NCBI GenBank assembly: GCA_012026795.1
Contig: VEPM01000037.1
Location: 1 to 37,382, forward strand
Source: Candidatus Methanoperedens sp.
GTDB taxonomy: Archaea; Halobacteriota; Methanosarcinia; Methanosarcinales; Methanoperedenaceae
Reading direction: 5' to 3'
Length of the DNA: 37,382 nucleotides
Below are positions 7,995 through 37,194 of this stretch, piece by piece. A program made the translations under genes and the position numbers. Within the stretch, counting starts at the first letter, position 1, and the number at the start of each line of letters is the position of its first letter. The notes below the pieces were generated by a model, which ran no database searches, had not been told where the DNA came from, and saw only the letters and a program-made list of their open reading frames with translations.

Positions 7995-10181
7995 ATGGGA
8001 GTTAAAGGGAGAGTTGGGAAAGCATCAGCTGCACGATTGAATGAAGAACAAATTGAAAAAGATACTATCAATGAAAAAATTAGCGACCTGGCATGTTGTA
8101 CTGAATCCGCTGCCGAAGAATTTCTTACTACCAACCAGGGTGCACGCATTAATGATAACCAGAACTCCCTGAAAGCCGGGGAAAGAGGCCCAACGCTTTT
8201 GGAAGATTTTTTCTTTCGTGAAAAAATTACTCATTTTGATCATGAACGCATCCCTGAACGGGTTGTGCACGCCCGCGGTGCAGGAGCACACGGTTACTTC
8301 CAGGTATACGAATCAATGGCTAAATATACGAAGGCAAAATTCCTGACCGATCCAGCGGAAAAAACTCCTGTATTTGTGCGTTTTTCAACAGTAGCCGGTT
8401 CCCGTGGCTCTACTGACCTGGCGAGGGATGTAAGAGGATTTGCAGTAAAATTTTATACAAAAGAGGGAAATTACGATTTAGTGGGTAATAATATGCCCGT
8501 CTTTTTTATCCAGGATGCAATTAAATTCCCTGATTTTGTTCATGCTGTCAAACCTGAACCTCACAATGAAATACCACAGGCGTCTTCTGCACATGACACT
8601 TTCTGGGACTTTATATCATTGGCGCCTGAATCGATGCATATGATCATGTGGTTAATGTCAGACCGTGCAATTCCACGCAGCTTTCGTATGATAGAAGGCT
8701 TCGGAGTACATACATTCCGCTTTATAAATGAAGATGGGGAATCGGTTTTCGTCAAATTCCACTGGAAACCCCTGCTGGGCGTTCATTCAGTAGTATGGGA
8801 GGAAGCTCAAATGATATCGGGTAAAGACCCGGACTTCCACCGCAGGGACCTGTGGGAAGCTATTGAAAAAGGTGCATTTCCCGAATGGGAGTTAGGCGTG
8901 CAGATAGTTCCTGAAGAAGATGAACATAAATATGAATTTGATTTGCTCGATCCCACTAAAATAATTCCCGAAGAATTAGTTCCTGTGCAACGTATCGGTA
9001 AATTGACTCTCAACCGGAATCCTGACAATTTCTTTGCTGAAACCGAACAGGTTGCCTTTCATCCCGGAAATGTTGTGCCAGGAATCGATTTCACCAATGA
9101 CCCGCTTTTGCAGGGACGGTTGTTCTCTTATATTGATACGCAGCTTTTACGCCTGGGAGGTCCGAACTTCCATGAAATTCCAATTAACCGCCCGATAGCC
9201 CCTGTACATAACAATCAACGTGATGGGCATATGAGGCAGACCATTAATCGCGGCAACACCAGTTATCAACCCAATACTATTGAAGATGGGTATCCCATAC
9301 AGGCAAAAGCTGCACAAGGCGGATTTACCAGTTATACCGAGCGGATTGAAGCAAATAAAGTTCGCGGCAGAAGCCGCAGTTTCTTTGACCATTTCAGCCA
9401 GGCAACGCTGTTCTATAATAGCCAGTCGGATGCAGAGAAAAAACATCTGACTGATGCTTTGAGTTTTGAATTGGGAAAAGTGGAGCGTGTTGAAATCCGC
9501 AAGCGTATGGTGGGATTACTCACCCAGGTTGATGAAACGCTGGCCTCAAACGTTGCAAATGCTCTTGGGCTTCCTGTACCAAGGCAACCTGAATACCCGA
9601 TGAACCACATAATTCCCGCAGACGGCGACCCGAAGGAATACCAACCTGTAAAGGTAAAGCAATCAATCAAAAAATCTGATGCATTGAGCATGGCTAACAC
9701 CATAAAAAATACAATCAAGACAAGACAAATAGCCATACTTGCAGCGGATGGTGTGGATGAAGCTTCAATCAGTCAAATGAAATCTGCGCTGGAAGCCGAA
9801 GGCGCACAAACAGCAATAATAGCTCCCAAACTTGGATACATAAAAAGCGCAACAGGGAAAGAAATAAAAGTTGACCAGAGTTTCTTAACAGCATCTTCAG
9901 TTCTATTCGATGCGGTATATGTGCCCGGTTCGGCATCCTTAAAAGAAAATGCCAGAGCGCTACAGTTTATTTATGAAGCTTATAAACATTATAAAGCCAT
10001 TGCTATGGATGATAAAGGTGTTGAGTTATTGAAGACATCATATCCTGGTAATAAAATGCCGGATACCTTGCAAGAAACTGATCTTGCAGCAAAGGGAATA
10101 ATCGTAAATATACATTCAAAAGGAGCAACATCAAAAGACTTTATTAAAGCTATAGCACAACATCGTTTCTGGAATAGATAG
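7995..10181 (+). CDS. katE: Large-subunit haem catalase (HPII/KatE type)
   Basis: 728 residues, close to the ~750 of clade-2 catalases. It disproportionates hydrogen peroxide to water and oxygen, normally as a tetramer in the cytoplasm. Visible active-site residues are the distal His92 in RVVHARGAGAHG, Asn165 in VGNNMPVFF and the proximal haem ligand Tyr379 in RLFSYIDTQ. Their spacings (73 and 287) match E. coli HPII. From about residue 560 there is a flavodoxin/class I glutaminase-like C-terminal domain (RQIAILAADGVDEAS), the feature that marks the large type. GGAGG lies just before the ATG. It is monocistronic, with its own promoter. Clade-2 catalase genes in anaerobic archaea are often horizontally acquired, and the adjacent transposase fits that, but transfer is not shown here. 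Confidence 0.96.
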   Translation: MGVKGRVGKASAARLNEEQIEKDTINEKISDLACCTESAAEEFLTTNQGARINDNQNSLKAGERGPTLLEDFFFREKITHFDHERIPERVVHARGAGAHGYFQVYESMAKYTKAKFLTDPAEKTPVFVRFSTVAGSRGSTDLARDVRGFAVKFYTKEGNYDLVGNNMPVFFIQDAIKFPDFVHAVKPEPHNEIPQASSAHDTFWDFISLAPESMHMIMWLMSDRAIPRSFRMIEGFGVHTFRFINEDGESVFVKFHWKPLLGVHSVVWEEAQMISGKDPDFHRRDLWEAIEKGAFPEWELGVQIVPEEDEHKYEFDLLDPTKIIPEELVPVQRIGKLTLNRNPDNFFAETEQVAFHPGNVVPGIDFTNDPLLQGRLFSYIDTQLLRLGGPNFHEIPINRPIAPVHNNQRDGHMRQTINRGNTSYQPNTIEDGYPIQAKAAQGGFTSYTERIEANKVRGRSRSFFDHFSQATLFYNSQSDAEKKHLTDALSFELGKVERVEIRKRMVGLLTQVDETLASNVANALGLPVPRQPEYPMNHIIPADGDPKEYQPVKVKQSIKKSDALSMANTIKNTIKTRQIAILAADGVDEASISQMKSALEAEGAQTAIIAPKLGYIKSATGKEIKVDQSFLTASSVLFDAVYVPGSASLKENARALQFIYEAYKHYKAIAMDDKGVELLKTSYPGNKMPDTLQETDLAAKGIIVNIHSKGATSKDFIKAIAQHRFWNR

Positions 10182-20425: not shown

Positions 20426-22768
20426 ATGCGAATAGGTGTTTACATTTGCCATTGCGGGTCAAATATAGCTGGAACTATAGATGTTGAAGGGGTCAGGAAA
20501 CACGCCTCTTTGCTAAAAGATGTGGTTGTAGCGCGTGACATACAATTTGCATGTGGGGATTCGGGGCAGGAACAGGTAAAAAAGGACATACTTGAAGAGA
20601 AACTTGACAGGATAGTTATGGCCGCATGCTCCCCGCGCCTTCATGAGGTCACATTCAGGCGCGTGCTTGAACAATCCGGCCTAAATAAGCACTTTCTTGA
20701 AATGGTAAATATCAGGGAGCAGGACTCCTGGGTTCATACAAACAAGAATGGATTGGCAACACAGAAAGCAAAAGAATTGGTGGCTATGGGGGTTGCAAGA
20801 GTAACACTTCTTTCCCCTCTTGAAAAGAGGACCGTTCCTGCAAATAAGGATATCCTTGTGATAGGCGCAGGTGTGGCAGGTATCGAGGCTGCACTGGCCC
20901 TTGCAAACATGGGGATCAAAGTCCATCTTGTTGAGAGAGAACCAACGATCGGGGGAAAAATGGCCCTTATGAATGAGGTTTTTCCCAATAATGATTGTTC
21001 CCTGTGCGTCCTTGCGCCAAAAATGTCAGATGTCCAGAACCATCCCAATATTACGCTCTACACAAATTCTGAAATAACAGGGGTAAGGGGAAGGGCGGGA
21101 AATTACAGGATAACAGGTGAGATAAGACCGCGATATGTTGACCCAAAGAAATGCAAAGGCTGCATTGATATCTGCGCAAAGGTCTGCCCGATTGATGTTC
21201 CGAACCAGTTCGATTATGGGATCGGTGCGCGAAAATCCATATACATTCCCTTTGCACAGGCTGTTCCTCTTGTAGCTTGCATTGATAAGAACTGTGTGGG
21301 CTGCGACCTGTGCAGGCTTGCATGTCCTGCAGAGGCAGTGGATTTTAACCAGAAAGTCGAAGAATTCAAGTTCGACGTCGGAGCCATTATAGTCGCTACG
21401 GGATACCAGCCGTTTGATGCAGGAAGAAAGGAAGAATACGGATATGGGCGATATAAAAATGTTGTAACCAACCTTGAAGTTGAACGAATGCTAAGCGCCG
21501 CAGGCCCCACACATGGAAGAGTGGTATCGCCATCTACAGGAGCAGATATAAAAAGTGCGGCTTTTATCCTTTGTGTGGGCTCGCGTGACGAACAGGTGGG
21601 AAATCCTTACTGCTCCAAGGTGTGCTGTATGGCTTCGATAAAAAATGCCATGAAACTTGCTGAAAAATATCCCGATGCAAAGATATCGGTACATTACATA
21701 GATATACGCGCTGGCGGAGAGATGTATGAGGAATACTACAAACGGGCGCAGGAGCTGGGCGTTTCATTCGTCCGGGGACGGGTTGCTGAAGTTGAAGAAT
21801 CAGATGGGAAAACAATAATTCATTATGAAGATACTCTTTCCGGCGAGAAATGCAGCGACATTACAGACCTGGTTGTGCTTGCCATAGGTATGGAAGCTGA
21901 CAAGGATTCCAGGCAAATAGGGAAAATGCTGAACCTCTCTACGCGTCCTGACCGGTTCTTCCAGAGCGCCCATCCGAAAATGCGCCCGGTGGAAACGCAC
22001 ACGAAAGGTATTTTCATTGCAGGATGCGCAGGCGGTCCCAAGGAAATACAGGTATCGATCGAACAGGGCAGTGCAGCCGCCGCAAAAGCACTAAGTCTTC
22101 TTCATAAAGGAGAAATTGATATGGAACCAGCGAGTGCTTATGTTATCCCCGACCTGTGTGATGGGTGCGGGATTTGTGAAAAAGTATGCGATTTCGGACG
22201 CATCAGGGTGACAGATAAGAAAGCAAGCGTTGATGAAGTAGCATGCCGGGGATGCGGAGCATGCACAGCAGCCTGCCCGAATGGCGCTATCCAGATCAGG
22301 AATTATACGGATGAACAGATCCTGTCGCAAATAACAGAGGCAACAAAAGAGGGCAGCGAATTCCCATTAATTGTCGGATTCCTGTGCCACTGGTGCAGTT
22401 ATGCGGCAGCTGACCTTGCAGGAAGCCTGCGAATCCAGTATCCAACCAACATCCGGAACATCAGGGTATTGTGTGCCGGAAGGATCAACCCGTCTTTTGT
22501 CCTCGAAGCCCTGCGAAGAGGAGCGGATGGTGTTCTTGTTTCAGGGTGCAGGCTGGGGGAATGCCATTACACCATTGGGAACATCTGTGCATTACAGAGG
22601 ATGAATGTTCTTGGAAAGATGCTGGTTGAGCTTGGCTTTGATGAGCGGCGTTTCCGCGTTGCATGGATAGCGGCAAGTGAAGGCCTGAAGTTTGCCGAAA
22701 TAGTGAAGGACTTCGTAAAGCAGTTAAAAGAAATAGGACCAATAGGCAGCGAGCTTAAGCAGGAATAG
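20426..22768 (+). CDS. hdrA: Heterodisulfide reductase subunit A fused to an MvhD-like domain
   Basis: 780 residues against about 650 for classical HdrA; the extra C-terminus is an MvhD-like [2Fe-2S] domain. The N-terminal domain has cysteines 8, 10, 43 and 68. The FAD fold starts at VIGAGVAGIEAA (145-156), and CSLC stands at 191-194. Ferredoxin sites are at 243-254 and 290-300, with two more in tandem at 578-588 and 607-617. The MvhD part (about 648-766) shows CHWC (654-657), CAGRI (683) and GCRLGEC (707-713). HdrA is the flavin bifurcation centre coupling CoM-S-S-CoB and ferredoxin reactions; fused forms are known as HdrA2 in Methanosarcina. There is no HdrB, HdrC or MvhAG nearby. fwdF follows after one base, which indicates a shared complex. 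Confidence 0.94.
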   Translation: MRIGVYICHCGSNIAGTIDVEGVRKHASLLKDVVVARDIQFACGDSGQEQVKKDILEEKLDRIVMAACSPRLHEVTFRRVLEQSGLNKHFLEMVNIREQDSWVHTNKNGLATQKAKELVAMGVARVTLLSPLEKRTVPANKDILVIGAGVAGIEAALALANMGIKVHLVEREPTIGGKMALMNEVFPNNDCSLCVLAPKMSDVQNHPNITLYTNSEITGVRGRAGNYRITGEIRPRYVDPKKCKGCIDICAKVCPIDVPNQFDYGIGARKSIYIPFAQAVPLVACIDKNCVGCDLCRLACPAEAVDFNQKVEEFKFDVGAIIVATGYQPFDAGRKEEYGYGRYKNVVTNLEVERMLSAAGPTHGRVVSPSTGADIKSAAFILCVGSRDEQVGNPYCSKVCCMASIKNAMKLAEKYPDAKISVHYIDIRAGGEMYEEYYKRAQELGVSFVRGRVAEVEESDGKTIIHYEDTLSGEKCSDITDLVVLAIGMEADKDSRQIGKMLNLSTRPDRFFQSAHPKMRPVETHTKGIFIAGCAGGPKEIQVSIEQGSAAAAKALSLLHKGEIDMEPASAYVIPDLCDGCGICEKVCDFGRIRVTDKKASVDEVACRGCGACTAACPNGAIQIRNYTDEQILSQITEATKEGSEFPLIVGFLCHWCSYAAADLAGSLRIQYPTNIRNIRVLCAGRINPSFVLEALRRGADGVLVSGCRLGECHYTIGNICALQRMNVLGKMLVELGFDERRFRVAWIAASEGLKFAEIVKDFVKQLKEIGPIGSELKQE

Positions 22769-22769
22769 C

Positions 22770-24089
22770 ATGAGCGAAGAAGAACTCAATGTTACAGTGG
22801 AAAGCGATATCAGGGATTCGCATTTCATCTTCACCCAGAAAACCGGGAAATCAAAGAAACTCCTTGATTATGATTACAAACGCTGCAATGGCTGTGGTTT
22901 ATGTATCCAGGTATGCCCCAGAAAAGCAATTGAGCCCGGGCCGCTTATAGAAATAGCCACAGGATTGGACGCACCGCCTGTTATCATTGACCATACCAGG
23001 TGTTCTTTTTGCGGCATGTGCGCCGCATTCTGCCCTGTCAGGTCGATGAGAATGAATATTAATGATAGAGATATTCTTGAGCTTGCAGAGTTTCCGCATC
23101 TTGATTCAAAAGTTGTGTTCAACGAGAAGTGCCTTCCCTGCCTGATATGTAAAAAATCATGCCCTGAAGAAGCTATCAGTATTGATCTTACATTTGCGAA
23201 AAAGGAGACACTTGCGCCATTCAAAGAGGGAAAGACCGGAGAGATCATAGTGGACATGGAAAAATGCACATTATGCGGCGCCTGTGCGGTGCTATGCCCT
23301 GCTTTTATTCTTGTTGAGAAAAAAGCAAAAGCAGATGACCTCATGCCTTTTGAGAATCTTGTTGTTGATAAGGTAAAATGCGATTACTGCGGCATCTGTG
23401 TGCCCTTCTGTCCTGAAGATGCAATAAAAGTAAAGGGAGATTTTAACGAGCAAGAAATCAAAAAAATTGCTCCCGAAATCACAGGTACCATCAAGGTGGA
23501 TAATGACAAATGCACCCGTTGCGGCTGGTGTGAGGCGGTATGCCCGTACGACGCGGCACAGGTCTCAAAACCATTTGAGGGCGAAATAGAGCTGATTGAT
23601 GAAAAGCTTAAAGGCTGCGACCCTGTTGGCTGCCACGGTTGTTTTAATGTATGCCCCTCCAGGGCCTGGGTCATCCCGAAGGATAAGAAAATAGATGTAG
23701 TGAAGGATTTTTGCACATATTGCGGCGCCTGTGAGAAAGCATGTCATGTTGAAGCGATAGGGGTAAAGCGGAAACTGGCAAAATATACACCCGTAGCCGA
23801 TACGGCATGGGCGCAAGACTGGAAGAAAGCGATTGCAAGCCTGACCACACAAGAGAGAGGACGCCCTGATGTATCGCGCTCGCTGCATGTGGAAAAAGAA
23901 GAAAAGAAAATTGAACCGGCAATAGTAAAGCCCGTTATTGATCCGGTATTAAGGAAACTCGTGGATGAACGGATTGAAAAGATGTCATCAATTCTTGGAA
24001 ATAAACAGGTAAGGCATGCATGGGAAAGAAAAGACGTTGAGACAGCCCTTGCAGAAATAAAGAAACGGATGAAAAAAGATGAAAAATGA
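22770..24089 (+). CDS. fwdF: Formylmethanofuran dehydrogenase polyferredoxin subunit F
   Basis: 439 residues. Eight [4Fe-4S] cysteine motifs are visible, starting near residues 39, 78, 121, 166, 204, 248, 283 and 315. The seventh is spaced unusually (CDPVGCHGC) and the eighth has CH in place of CP. The stretch EIATGLDAPP between the first two is a FwdF/FmdF signature that separates it from MvhB-type polyferredoxins. FwdF wires formylmethanofuran dehydrogenase to heterodisulfide reductase, where it contacts HdrA in the large Hdr-Fwd assemblies. Here it is co-transcribed with hdrA. Residues 340-439 form a charged C-terminal extension without cysteines, probably helical. In a methane oxidiser the complex would run in the direction that releases CO2. 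Confidence 0.9.
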   Translation: MSEEELNVTVESDIRDSHFIFTQKTGKSKKLLDYDYKRCNGCGLCIQVCPRKAIEPGPLIEIATGLDAPPVIIDHTRCSFCGMCAAFCPVRSMRMNINDRDILELAEFPHLDSKVVFNEKCLPCLICKKSCPEEAISIDLTFAKKETLAPFKEGKTGEIIVDMEKCTLCGACAVLCPAFILVEKKAKADDLMPFENLVVDKVKCDYCGICVPFCPEDAIKVKGDFNEQEIKKIAPEITGTIKVDNDKCTRCGWCEAVCPYDAAQVSKPFEGEIELIDEKLKGCDPVGCHGCFNVCPSRAWVIPKDKKIDVVKDFCTYCGACEKACHVEAIGVKRKLAKYTPVADTAWAQDWKKAIASLTTQERGRPDVSRSLHVEKEEKKIEPAIVKPVIDPVLRKLVDERIEKMSSILGNKQVRHAWERKDVETALAEIKKRMKKDEK

Positions 24090-33218: not shown

Positions 33219-33230
33219 ATATTTATAAGT
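33219..33230 (+). promoter_or_regulatory. Candidate TATA element of the CooS gene
   Basis: ATATTTATAAGT lies in an AT-rich stretch and would start transcription near 33252, giving a leader of about 100 bases that contains a short ORF (33271-33315). A second candidate, CTTATAATATATAG, lies at 33200-33213. Confidence 0.35.
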
Positions 33231-33315: not shown

Positions 33316-33351
33316 TACAAGAGGATACAATAAAAATTTTGGAGGAATATT

Positions 33352-35229
33352 ATGGAATCGGTTAGTGCACATGAATCAGTAATAAAAATGCATAATATAT
33401 TGCATAAAGATAATGTAACGAACACTTTTGATAGGGCCCAGGCTCAGGGAAAACGCTGTACATTCTGCGAACAGGGTATAAGCTGCCAGCTTTGCAGCAA
33501 CGGCCCATGCAGAATAAAGCCAGGAGCACCCCGCGGGGTTTGCGGCATAGATGCCGATGGCATGGCAATGAGGAACTTGCTGTTCCTGAACACCATGGGT
33601 ACAACAGCATATACTCACCATGCAAAAAGCGTAGCAAAAACACTCAAAGCAACCGCACAGGGTAAAACGCCTTTCCAGATAAAGGACGAAGCAAAGCTTA
33701 GAAGTTTTGCAGAAAAGATGGGGATAAGAATACAGGGAAGCACAAAAGATACTGCAATTGCTCTTGCAAACGAGATTACTGCGCAAATAAACTCCGATTC
33801 TGACATCGAGCTTTCAAACGTCCTGAGATTTGCCCCGAAGTCAAGAATAGAAGCCTGGAGAAAACTTGGAGTACTTCCCGGAGGACCACTTCATGAGGTT
33901 ATGGATGCTACCACAAGTGCGATGACAAATATTGATGGCGATTACGTTTCACTTGCAAAAAAGGCATTGCGTCTTGGTATTTCCTGCATTTACGGCTCAC
34001 AGGTACCGCTTGAGATGACACAGGACATCCTGTTTGGAACGCCACAGCCTCATGCGGTCAATGTGGATCTTGGAGTTATCGACCCGGCTTACGTAAATAT
34101 TGCTGCAAATGGTCATGAGCCTTTCATTGGCGTGGCTCTTATCAAAGCTGCCCATGAGACAAAAAACCAGGATGCTGCGAAGAAAGCAGGAGCAAATGGG
34201 CTCCACATTATCGGTTCAATCGAAACAGGCCAGGAGCTTATCCAGAGATTCCCGATCGATGATGTATTCGTGGGAATGATCGGGAACTGGCTATCTATCG
34301 AACCCGCGCTTGCAACAGGCGGCATCGATGTTTTCGCCATGGATATGAACTGTTCTCCTCCGGGAATGGGCGAATACCAGGAAAAATACAACACCAACCT
34401 TATTTCGGTTTCAAACCTGGTTAATGTTCCGGGCATGAAAGACCAGATAATCTATAAACCGGAAGATGCAGCAGACCAGGCGCAGAAACTCATAGATATC
34501 GCAATTGGGAACTTCAGGGATAGAAAAGGAAAGGTTACAAACCCATCAGGCAAAAAACAGAACGCTATAATCGGTTTCTCGACGGAGGCATGTCTTGGGG
34601 CACTCGGCGGCACACTTGCCCCGCTTCTTGATGTTATCAAGAAGGGGACTTTAAAAGGAGTCGTAGCGCTTGTGAGCTGCACAACGCTGCATGACAGCGG
34701 CCAGGATGTAAATACTTTGAAAATGGCCCGCGAACTTATCAAACGGGACATACTTGTCATCAGCGCAGGATGCGGAAATGCTGCACTTCAGGTCGGTGGA
34801 CTTACAACTCTTGAAGCAAAGCAGGAAGCAGGACCGGGTCTTAAGGCTGTATGTGAATTACTCAAGATCCCGCCTGTCCTGAGCTTTGGTACATGCACGG
34901 ATACAGGAAGAATCACGCTTCTTGTGACGGCAGTCGCTGATGCTCTGGGTGTTGACCCCTCCCAGCTTCCGGTTGCAGTCACGGCGCCGGAATATATGGA
35001 ACAGAAAGCCACGATCGATGCATTATTTGCCCTGGCTTTCGGACTTTATACACACGTAGCGCCCCTGCCTCCGGTTGCAGGTGCTCCACGCCTCGTGAAA
35101 CTCCTTACCGTAGACCTTGAAGGAATCACTGGCGGAAAGGTTGCTGTAGAAACAGACATGGTTGAAGCGGCAAAAGGCATAGAATCACATATCATGAAGA
35201 AACGGTCTGCACTGGGATTGCCTGCGTAA
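33352..35229 (+). CDS. cooS: CooS-type CODH homologue with altered active-site ligands
   Basis: 625 residues, full length for anaerobic CODH. GGAGG precedes the ATG. The [4Fe-4S] B-cluster cysteines (45, 48, 53, 64) are present, and Cys36/Cys39 form a CxxC D-cluster site. Active-site residues equivalent to His261, Cys333, Cys446, Cys476, Cys526 and Lys563 of C. hydrogenoformans CODH-II are present as His255, Cys334, Cys443, Cys474, Cys515 and Lys552. The Cys295 equivalent is Glu291 (GSIETGQE against GICCTGNE), and the His93 equivalent is Tyr87; two relay histidines are also changed. No CooC, CooF or acetyl-CoA synthase gene is adjacent. It belongs to the CODH fold, but CO oxidation is doubtful: the ligand set resembles hybrid-cluster protein, and a CooS-V enzyme lacking a canonical cysteine carries an Fe-S-O cluster. 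Confidence 0.9.
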   Translation: MESVSAHESVIKMHNILHKDNVTNTFDRAQAQGKRCTFCEQGISCQLCSNGPCRIKPGAPRGVCGIDADGMAMRNLLFLNTMGTTAYTHHAKSVAKTLKATAQGKTPFQIKDEAKLRSFAEKMGIRIQGSTKDTAIALANEITAQINSDSDIELSNVLRFAPKSRIEAWRKLGVLPGGPLHEVMDATTSAMTNIDGDYVSLAKKALRLGISCIYGSQVPLEMTQDILFGTPQPHAVNVDLGVIDPAYVNIAANGHEPFIGVALIKAAHETKNQDAAKKAGANGLHIIGSIETGQELIQRFPIDDVFVGMIGNWLSIEPALATGGIDVFAMDMNCSPPGMGEYQEKYNTNLISVSNLVNVPGMKDQIIYKPEDAADQAQKLIDIAIGNFRDRKGKVTNPSGKKQNAIIGFSTEACLGALGGTLAPLLDVIKKGTLKGVVALVSCTTLHDSGQDVNTLKMARELIKRDILVISAGCGNAALQVGGLTTLEAKQEAGPGLKAVCELLKIPPVLSFGTCTDTGRITLLVTAVADALGVDPSQLPVAVTAPEYMEQKATIDALFALAFGLYTHVAPLPPVAGAPRLVKLLTVDLEGITGGKVAVETDMVEAAKGIESHIMKKRSALGLPA

Positions 35230-35314: not shown

Positions 35315-35959
35315 TCAGATAAATTCTTTGATTTTTTCCAGAACGAGAATAGCATCCTGATGTTTTATATCAACTTCATTCAGTTTAATAAAATCAAGTA
35401 GTTTTTTCTTTTCAATTCCTGAGATAATTCCATTTTTCTCGCTTTCGAATACGACATGCTGGTAATTCCTGTCAGGATAGAATAACTTCCGGGCGATCCC
35501 GATAATAGCAGCTGCCTGTACCGGGTCTATAACTGCCGCATTTTTTGCAGCTTCAACTGTCATCCTGATATTAACAAGCGGAATTGAAAGCGCTTCATTT
35601 GATTCTGCATCAAAAGTAACAGCAACCTCGTCATCCGATTCAATAATCCCGTTCTTATACATCTCGAAAACTTTTCCTACACCTATCATGCCATAGGTTT
35701 CAAGCTCAGAAGACCTGAGTGCCCCCATACTTCCTCCTCCGACAATGATTATCCCACTTTTTAAGGCTTCAATTATTTCGCGATGAGCTACTGCCGCATT
35801 ATCAAAAAAAACACCGTCAATTATCCCGATTATTTCCGGGGGTGACGCAAGAATACGTCTGAGATCATGGCGCTTCACAGGCGCACGATAATCAGCATCC
35901 AGTATTTTTCTTGCGTCGCTGTGGCTTATGCTTGTTCCTGTATACACCACAGGCTTCAT
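35315..35959 (-). CDS. tfuA: TfuA-like protein, YcaO partner
   Basis: 214 residues, standard for TfuA. TGTSISHSDARKIL at the start, IGIIDGVFF near 46 and GGGSMGALRSSELE near 74-87 are typical family pieces. In methanogens TfuA works with YcaO, and is thought to deliver sulfide, to make the thioglycine in the methyl-coenzyme M reductase alpha subunit. Its start overlaps the ycaO stop by 4 bases (ATGA), so the pair is coupled. Confidence 0.93.
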   Translation of the reverse strand: MKPVVYTGTSISHSDARKILDADYRAPVKRHDLRRILASPPEIIGIIDGVFFDNAAVAHREIIEALKSGIIIVGGGSMGALRSSELETYGMIGVGKVFEMYKNGIIESDDEVAVTFDAESNEALSIPLVNIRMTVEAAKNAAVIDPVQAAAIIGIARKLFYPDRNYQHVVFESEKNGIISGIEKKKLLDFIKLNEVDIKHQDAILVLEKIKEFI

Positions 35960-37194
35960 TTAGCCACTCTCTTCTTCCTTTTCTTGATACGGTCCCCTTT
36001 TCTTTCACGGTCAAGCGTATAAAGTTCAAACATCGGGATTATCGCCCTTACTACTGGTATATCAACGCCTCTTGAAAGATTTACGATTATCGCGCCATCG
36101 GCTATATTATCAAGCCGCTCTAAAACTGTTTTTATGTTGGCAGCAGGCGTATTACTTGAGCTGTCCTCCAGCTCATCCATGTGGATTTTATCAAGATCTT
36201 CATACCAGTAGCTGTTCATTCGTTTCATGTGATCATAGCCAAAGGTTCTTACAACCTGTTCACGGTCAGTATCCTCGCGTGCTCCGTGTATCTGTACGAC
36301 CCTGCTTTGCGCAGCTTCTGTCAGCGCCCTCGTGACCGCAATTTCAGGTGTCAGATGCGAACCAGCTCCCATAACAAGAAGAGCCGGGTCTTTAAGGACT
36401 GTATCATCAAGCGCTGTTACGACAGTTGGAATGTCAATATCGGAATCAAGCAGCCAGATCTTTACGTTAATTCCAGCAGCTTCCAGTTTTGTTTTAAGTG
36501 TATAATTCAGTCCGTCTTTTTCGGTAAGCACTATTTCTTTTCCGGGGTTCCGGGTATATTCAGCTATACTCAGTGAATCCCTTTCTATAACTTCAAGCAA
36601 CCCATGAAGTATCGCTTCCTCTATAGTATTTCCCGAAGCCAGGCCGTTGGTATTGCTCCGGAACAGCTTATTTCCGCCCTGTGGCTCATAGGGATGGAAA
36701 ACCGCATTTGCAGGAACGAAAACTTCGACATCGTTTAAAATGTCATCCCCCATGATCCATTCAAGTTTTGTGAATTCAGCAACTGGCTGTGGAAGAAGGA
36801 GCGCATCAGGGTACAGTGTCGGATAGCTCTCACACAGTGATTCGTATGAATCTGTAACCGTTTCTGTTTGCAGCTTGACGCCGCTGAGATTTACGCTTAC
36901 CTCAGGCTGCTCGGCAAGGCAGCGCTCAAAACTTTCCATTATCGCAGATATCCTGGCATTTGTCTCTGTTGCGCCTTTTCCAGAGTAAATGGATATCGCA
37001 CCTGCGGCCGCACTTGGCCTGATAGCCGAGAAAACAGGTATACCAACACGGTCAAGGTCAGTGATATTTGCAATTCTGGTCACACCTATCCTGGGAAGAA
37101 GCTTTGTAGTATTTGACAGTGTGGTTTCAGGATCAAATACGCGCTGTGTGCCTTCAAGATATTTGATATTCGGATCTATTTTTATAGCGCTCAT
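35956..37194 (-). CDS. ycaO: YcaO-type thioamidation enzyme
   Basis: 412 residues. The ATP-binding YcaO core shows SGKGATETNARISAIMES (71-88) and TNGLASGNTIEEAILHGL (182-199) with EVIERD after it. The C-terminus ends in a basic RKGDRIKKRKKRVAK, not the proline-rich tail of azoline-forming cyclodehydratases, in keeping with a peptide thioamidase. With TfuA it phosphorylates a backbone amide and exchanges oxygen for sulfur in McrA. The pair implies that the genome carries mcr genes, outside this window. No Shine-Dalgarno is seen; a TATA-like TTTTTTATATTACC on the minus strand lies near 37242-37255. Confidence 0.93.
   Translation of the reverse strand: MSAIKIDPNIKYLEGTQRVFDPETTLSNTTKLLPRIGVTRIANITDLDRVGIPVFSAIRPSAAAGAISIYSGKGATETNARISAIMESFERCLAEQPEVSVNLSGVKLQTETVTDSYESLCESYPTLYPDALLLPQPVAEFTKLEWIMGDDILNDVEVFVPANAVFHPYEPQGGNKLFRSNTNGLASGNTIEEAILHGLLEVIERDSLSIAEYTRNPGKEIVLTEKDGLNYTLKTKLEAAGINVKIWLLDSDIDIPTVVTALDDTVLKDPALLVMGAGSHLTPEIAVTRALTEAAQSRVVQIHGAREDTDREQVVRTFGYDHMKRMNSYWYEDLDKIHMDELEDSSSNTPAANIKTVLERLDNIADGAIIVNLSRGVDIPVVRAIIPMFELYTLDRERKGDRIKKRKKRVAK

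Follow-up and report, generated by a model that had tools for sequence, protein, structure and literature searches.

The question raised by this locus is what a protein annotated as a CO dehydrogenase (CODH) might do when a glutamate stands in place of its active-site cysteine. The gene lies in a stretch of 37,382 nucleotides from a Candidatus Methanoperedens species (hereafter the window), and its reading frame is intact throughout all 625 translated codons (Table 1). PF03063 and TIGR01702 both match the product in profile searches, and the best sequence match in the PDB is 7b7q, CooS-V of C. hydrogenoformans, the next match scoring 416 bits. The initial annotation, which aligned residues by eye, had placed Glu291 at the position of Cys295 of CODH-II and Tyr87 at that of His93, with Ser and Lys at those of His99 and His102. 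A MAFFT alignment of the window protein with its relatives and with the CODH-II, CODH-IV and CooS-V sequences from the PDB search output gives the same matches, and its numbering is consistent with every published ligand number. No cysteine falls at the Cys295 position, the Glu site reads GSIETGQE in the window protein and GSIESGQE in 7b7q, S93 and K96 align with H99 and H102, and the histidine and four cysteines already regarded as conserved are confirmed as such. Overall identity is 57.9% to CooS-V and 33.3% to CODH-II.

Table 1. Features of the cooS gene in the window; ligand roles are predicted from the alignment.
Feature	Position	Strand	Evidence
cooS gene, assigned by sequence to group D-1 (CooS-V type), 625 aa	33352..35229	+	TIGR01702 783 bits; PF03063; 7b7q CooS-V 781 bits; tree
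Candidate promoter (weak evidence): TATA-like box TTTATA, 5' intergenic	33222..33227	+	
Ribosome-binding site GGAGG, 6 nt ahead of ATG	33341..33345	+	
Cys36 and Cys39, type III D-cluster spacing	33457..33468	+	alignment; PMC6344411 Table 2
B-cluster motif Cys45-X2-Cys48-X4-Cys53-X10-Cys64	33484..33543	+	alignment
Tyr87 (TAT), replaces acid-base His93; CooS-V Y91	33610..33612	+	alignment
His255, cluster ligand; CODH-II His261, CooS-V H259	34114..34116	+	alignment
Glu291 (GAA); CODH-II Cys295, CooS-V Glu295	34222..34224	+	MAFFT alignment
Asn333-Cys334; CooS-V Asn337-Cys338; Cys334 = CODH-II C333	34348..34353	+	alignment
Cys443, cluster ligand; CooS-V Cys449, CODH-II C446	34678..34680	+	alignment
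Cys474, cluster ligand; CooS-V Cys480, CODH-II C476	34771..34773	+	alignment
Cys515, cluster ligand; CooS-V Cys521, CODH-II C526	34894..34896	+	alignment
Glu550, second Glu of hybrid-cluster set; CooS-V Glu556, CODH-II His561	34999..35001	+	alignment; 88/88 D-1 rows

The proposal of a hybrid-cluster-like ligand set within a CODH scaffold is supported by these matches, although the list on which it was built had missed E550, N333 and C39. The canonical Ni-CODH set of one His and five Cys is broken by the Glu at the Cys295 position, and the canonical acid-base His93 is missing. Lys is kept at K552, two positions behind E550, and the position of CODH-II Ile567 is altered to Asp or Ala in both D-1 and its neighboring group D-4. 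The type III D-cluster pattern C-X2-C-X5-C is present as C36, C39 and C45; in CooS-V, the cysteines of this type hold a bridging [2Fe-2S] cluster. It has also been established that Cys521 of CooS-V, the counterpart of Cys515, is the persulfide carrier (PMC9311411).

Conservation among relatives argues that the substitution is genuine. Glu at positions 291 and 550, Asn at 333 and Tyr at 87 are each present in every one of the 88 D-1 rows used for tree building, which come from archaea and from several phyla of bacteria. Glu291 is itself the defining feature of these rows, but their clade contains none without it; coming from searches seeded with the window protein, the rows are a sample of kin and not of all CODHs. 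In a quick IQ-TREE run, with SH-aLRT as the only support measure and some long branches including that of CooS-V, D-1 is monophyletic (SH-aLRT 100) and of single origin, with CooS-V and the window protein inside it and the Cys-bearing D-4 as its sister. Between the window cooS and three close orthologues, dN/dS is about 0.1-0.15, which together with the Glu in all 88 rows rules out chance or a sequencing error. The same evidence makes it hardly credible that the protein is a decayed CODH without function: one C-cluster cysteine and the proton-relay histidine have been lost, as decay would predict, but the dN/dS against close orthologues and the invariance of all hybrid-cluster residues over the 88 rows largely refute it.

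An AlphaFold2 model (mean pLDDT 92.9), built without a cofactor so that any contact between Glu291 and the cluster is not visible in it, is nearest to the CooS-V crystal structures (TM 0.98, rmsd 0.9-1.1), canonical CODHs being further away (TM 0.95-0.96). It has been demonstrated that CooS-V carries a Ni-free Fe/S/O hybrid cluster and neither oxidizes CO nor reduces CO2 (Jeoung 2022, PMC9311411), and the C295E variant of CODH-II is described as Ni-deficient and inactive (PMC9311411 and PMC6344411). The earlier statement that CooS-V lacks a canonical cluster cysteine is true but understated, as CooS-V has the same Glu, and the earlier doubt about CO oxidation is strengthened by the shared residues and the model. 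CooS-V, whose ligands are the same, contains no Ni and is inactive with CO, and from this we infer that the window protein does not oxidize CO; the identity of all ligand positions makes it very probably a Ni-free Fe/S/O hybrid-cluster enzyme. It would be a homodimer of the CooS-V type (clade D, group D-1) in which B- and D-type Fe/S clusters feed a hybrid cluster held by His255, Glu291, Cys334, Cys443, Cys474, Cys515 and Glu550. This reading is no discovery, because it already stands in the literature on this group (Inoue 2019, PMC6344411; Jeoung 2022, PMC9311411).

A working Ni-CODH, in which these archaea have kept Ni and CO chemistry with Glu in place of Cys, is improbable, although several lines of evidence speak for it. 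The protein matches TIGR01702 at equivalog level, genetics of the D-1 protein of M. acetivorans suggested a part in CO oxidation (Inoue 2019, PMC6344411), and CooS1F has been reported to aid CO removal (PMC4652020). Moreover, according to Egas et al. 2026 (PMC13079737), Methanoperedens BLZ2 prefers CO, and CO oxidation is credited to five highly expressed CooS that rise strongly with CO plus nitrate, while CooS_3 and CooS_5, of another structural group, are hardly expressed. The BLZ2 genome (G018) contains two D-1, one D-4 and two canonical-motif CooS that are 98.4% identical over their common part, one of which adjoins a gene resembling the carbamate kinase named in a figure legend of that paper. 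The simplest matching would make the canonical pair the silent CooS_3 and CooS_5, and the five expressed proteins the two chromosomal D-1, one D-4 and a D-1/D-4 pair repeated on a mobile element, so that three of the five are probably D-1. Should this matching be right, CooS-V-type proteins would account for at least some of the transcripts that were taken as a sign of CO oxidation. The induction under CO speaks against an exclusive role in nitrogen chemistry and, together with the link of CooS1F to CO removal, is the reason for still granting Ni-dependent CO chemistry a small probability. Against it stand the properties of CooS-V and of the C295E variant, the further changes at the His93, Gln332 and Ile567 positions, and the fact that D-4 enzymes or CdhA could oxidize CO in BLZ2.

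The genome that holds the window, 99.98% complete by the tool's estimate, has CdhA on contig C6 and two further, nearly identical CooS copies with canonical motifs, whose His and Cys ligands are all canonical, on contigs C10 (L163, 6038-8095) and C19 (L164, 6317-8326). The D-1 sequences closest to the window protein, at 92-93% identity, are those of METP1, Ca. Methanoperedens BLZ2 and LFW-24. Among the matches listed, D-1 occurs in 23 of the 31 genomes of the genus, two of the 23 having D-4 as well, and D-4 alone in six, a tally made at an identity of at least 80% in which contig ends truncate some copies. As only D-4 is named for Methanoperedens in the accessible text of Inoue 2019 (PMC6344411), the presence of D-1 in this genus is an addition of the present analysis. 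No HCP above the curated cut-off was found in any of the 31 genus genomes, the controls being positive; over the order, 42 of 120 genomes bear HCP, all of them, among the matches listed, in one family (f5) whose D-1 proteins share about 51-55% identity with that of the window. A mutual exclusion of HCP and D-1 was considered and rejected as a rule, being true for families f1 and f2 but broken in Methanosarcinaceae, where genomes with both occur. D-1 is thus not simply a substitute for HCP, and the absence of HCP is a property of some families, not strict exclusion against D-1. Nor is D-1 a mere companion of the canonical nitrate reductase, since narG exceeds its cut-off in only two of the 31 genus genomes, against 23 with D-1. 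In the genome that holds the window, searches found neither a match to narG nor an orthologue of HAO, and the matches to NrfA were weak, so that a nitrate-linked role is not supported for this species, for which a general protective role remains.

Clade D has been described as largely devoid of conserved neighbors, with 64% of its genes apparently solitary and its function called unproven (Bohm and Land 2026, PMC13056359). None of the seed neighbor families lies within 6 kb of the window copy. Its upstream pyrBI side is common only to LFW-24 (L041), and its downstream TfuA/YcaO pair is found in no compared locus. The latter genes (35315-37194, minus strand), convergent with cooS and directly downstream, are related to those for McrA-glycine thioamidation and mark a methane-cycling archaeon. 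Elsewhere in the window, an HdrA-like FAD oxidoreductase, which contains 4Fe-4S and FlpD/MvhD domains, precedes a polyferredoxin rich in 4Fe-4S domains (20426-24089, plus strand), and a long catalase with a C-terminal DJ-1/PfpI-like domain (7995-10181, plus strand) is encoded in this anaerobic methane-oxidizing lineage. Neither Rfam nor a tRNA scan gave a match in the window, and a plasmid search gave matches of about 30-34% identity at most.

The neighborhoods of relatives are richer, their counts being raw and most loci being related by ancestry and therefore not independent tests. In the D-1-bearing genomes of the genus, six good HAO-family orthologues were detected, five of them separated from a D-1 cooS by 96-1228 bp, and three of these five loci share one arrangement by common descent. 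These neighbors have seven or eight CXXCH motifs and belong to the HAO family by Pfam and PDB structure matches; further ones adjoin D-1 in other lineages (L062, L067). HPP and CBS genes are found beside D-1 and HAO in four loci (L045, L047, L049, L053), HPP proteins being reported to act in nitrite transport (PMC7438415, citing Maeda 2014). Two RAMP-superfamily genes of type III CRISPR-like kind (L045, 13019-14709, minus strand) also lie near the BLZ2 cooS/HAO cluster. In eight ANME-2/Methanosarcinales loci, rubrerythrin, flavodiiron and ferredoxin-thioredoxin reductase (FTR) genes stand directly upstream on the same strand, and in nine loci, mostly of Thermoplasmata, D-1 adjoins an ArsR-V4R (MsvR-like) regulator. 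A double-4Fe-4S protein, present beside D-1 in 17 loci, was rejected as its dedicated partner, as it also occurs away from D-1 in nearly all Methanoperedens genomes.

We propose that the window protein most likely works at low potential as a reductase, clearing small reactive nitrogen species such as hydroxylamine or NO with electrons presumably drawn from ferredoxin, in a niche that would be filled elsewhere by HCP. In the known cases, the site of action of HAO-like cytochromes is extracytoplasmic, so that a pool of free hydroxylamine common to them and CooS is an assumption. HAO and hydroxylamine reductase together form the reverse-HURM route in Nautilia (PMC3701875). The nitrogen-oxide or hydroxylamine role suggested by the initial annotation is plausible from the neighborhoods of relatives and the HCP-free genus; since the window copy has no informative neighbors and its genome no narG match or HAO orthologue, it is a role that we infer. 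CooS-V itself is slow, with a kcat for hydroxylamine of 0.13 per second, an efficiency about two orders of magnitude below that of HCPs, and no detected NO reduction (PMC9311411). The chances that reactive nitrogen is the main substrate seem about even. A more specific version can be advanced only tentatively: in HCP-free Methanoperedens and ANME-2, D-1 proteins would not oxidize CO and would reduce hydroxylamine or NO that nitrate respiration or HAO-family cytochromes produce. Several of the highly expressed CODHs credited with CO oxidation in BLZ2 would then be redox enzymes or enzymes of nitrogen stress, leaving the oxidation of CO to D-4 and CdhA.

The same Ni-free hybrid-cluster protein might instead remove oxygen-derived species such as peroxide or by-products of O2, which we consider rather unlikely. 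The flavodiiron, rubrerythrin and ferredoxin-thioredoxin reductase genes directly upstream in eight relatives would suit such a task, but flavodiiron proteins also reduce NO, and these neighbors therefore do not separate the nitrogen and oxygen readings. The MsvR-like regulators at nine loci point to oxygen as well, MsvR being known in Methanothermobacter to control fpaA, the gene for the F420H2 oxidase (PMC3729527), as do the Cys39 type of D-cluster, tied to O2 tolerance in the CODH of D. vulgaris (PMC9311411), and the catalase gene within the window; the HAO-family and HPP neighbors in Methanoperedens point to nitrogen. It is less probable still that the protein is a redox sensor or regulator, whose reversible cluster rearrangement is the signal and whose slow turnover is incidental. 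The CooS-V cluster is indeed redox-morphing (PMC9311411) and its hydroxylamine turnover very slow, clade D has been tied to transcriptional regulators with a suggestion of redox sensing (Bohm and Land 2026, PMC13056359), and regulator genes adjoin several D-1 loci. Nevertheless, a DNA-binding or signaling domain is absent, the adjacent regulators may merely control cooS, and the access channel of CooS-V, open only in the reduced state (PMC9311411), suits an enzyme.

The preferred reading, a Ni-free reductase, bears on how CO metabolism is estimated, because D-1 proteins are annotated, and counted in genome surveys, as CO dehydrogenases; if the copies of methane-oxidizing archaea contain no Ni, the capacity of these organisms for CO oxidation is being overestimated. 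What is new here is the occurrence of D-1 in HCP-free methane-oxidizing archaea, the neighborhoods of relatives hinting at defense against reactive nitrogen or oxygen, and the conflict with BLZ2. For the group, these neighborhoods (an HAO-family cytochrome, HPP, a flavodiiron operon) point to specific assays, and Methanoperedens, being without HCP, offers a cleaner setting than Methanosarcina for testing its role.

In comparison with known systems, the window protein appears from its sequence to belong to an already described kind, the CooS-V type of clade D, structural group D-1. Inoue 2019 (PMC6344411) used just these residues to define D-1 and proposed an HCP-like function for it; every signature in its table (type III D-cluster, His, Glu, four Cys, Tyr and Lys) is present in the window protein, and no difference from that description was found. 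The D-1 proteins of Methanosarcinaceae, of which M. acetivorans CooS1F is a presumed member, have Glu at the same position and fall in the same clade, but are only about 51-55% identical, mostly come from genomes with a true HCP, and include the M. acetivorans protein genetically linked to CO. The D-4 CooS of Methanoperedens (L045, 2452-4380, minus strand; L037, L038, L146-L151) share with the window protein the residues at positions Tyr87, Asn333, Glu550 and Asp556, but differ in Cys at 291, Gly39, a type II D-cluster and an identity of about 49%, a residue pattern intermediate between canonical CODH and D-1. HCPs would resemble it in the His, two Glu and four Cys round an Fe/S/O cluster, by a published comparison with equivalents taken via CooS-V. 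They form another branch of PF03063, and the TIGR01703 (HCP) score of the window protein is 32.9 bits, below the cut-off of 360.8. CooS-V turns over more slowly than HCPs, and its midpoint potentials lie some 300 mV lower than those of E. coli HCP (PMC9311411). The closest known system is CooS-V itself (PDB 7b7q, 7b7t, 7b95, 7b97, 7b9a; Jeoung et al. 2022): the window protein, known from its sequence and a model, differs from it in its archaeal host and by an identity of 58%, and shares with it every ligand of the cluster, Glu295 and Glu556 among them, as well as Tyr91, Asn337, the type III D-cluster, the fold and the clade.
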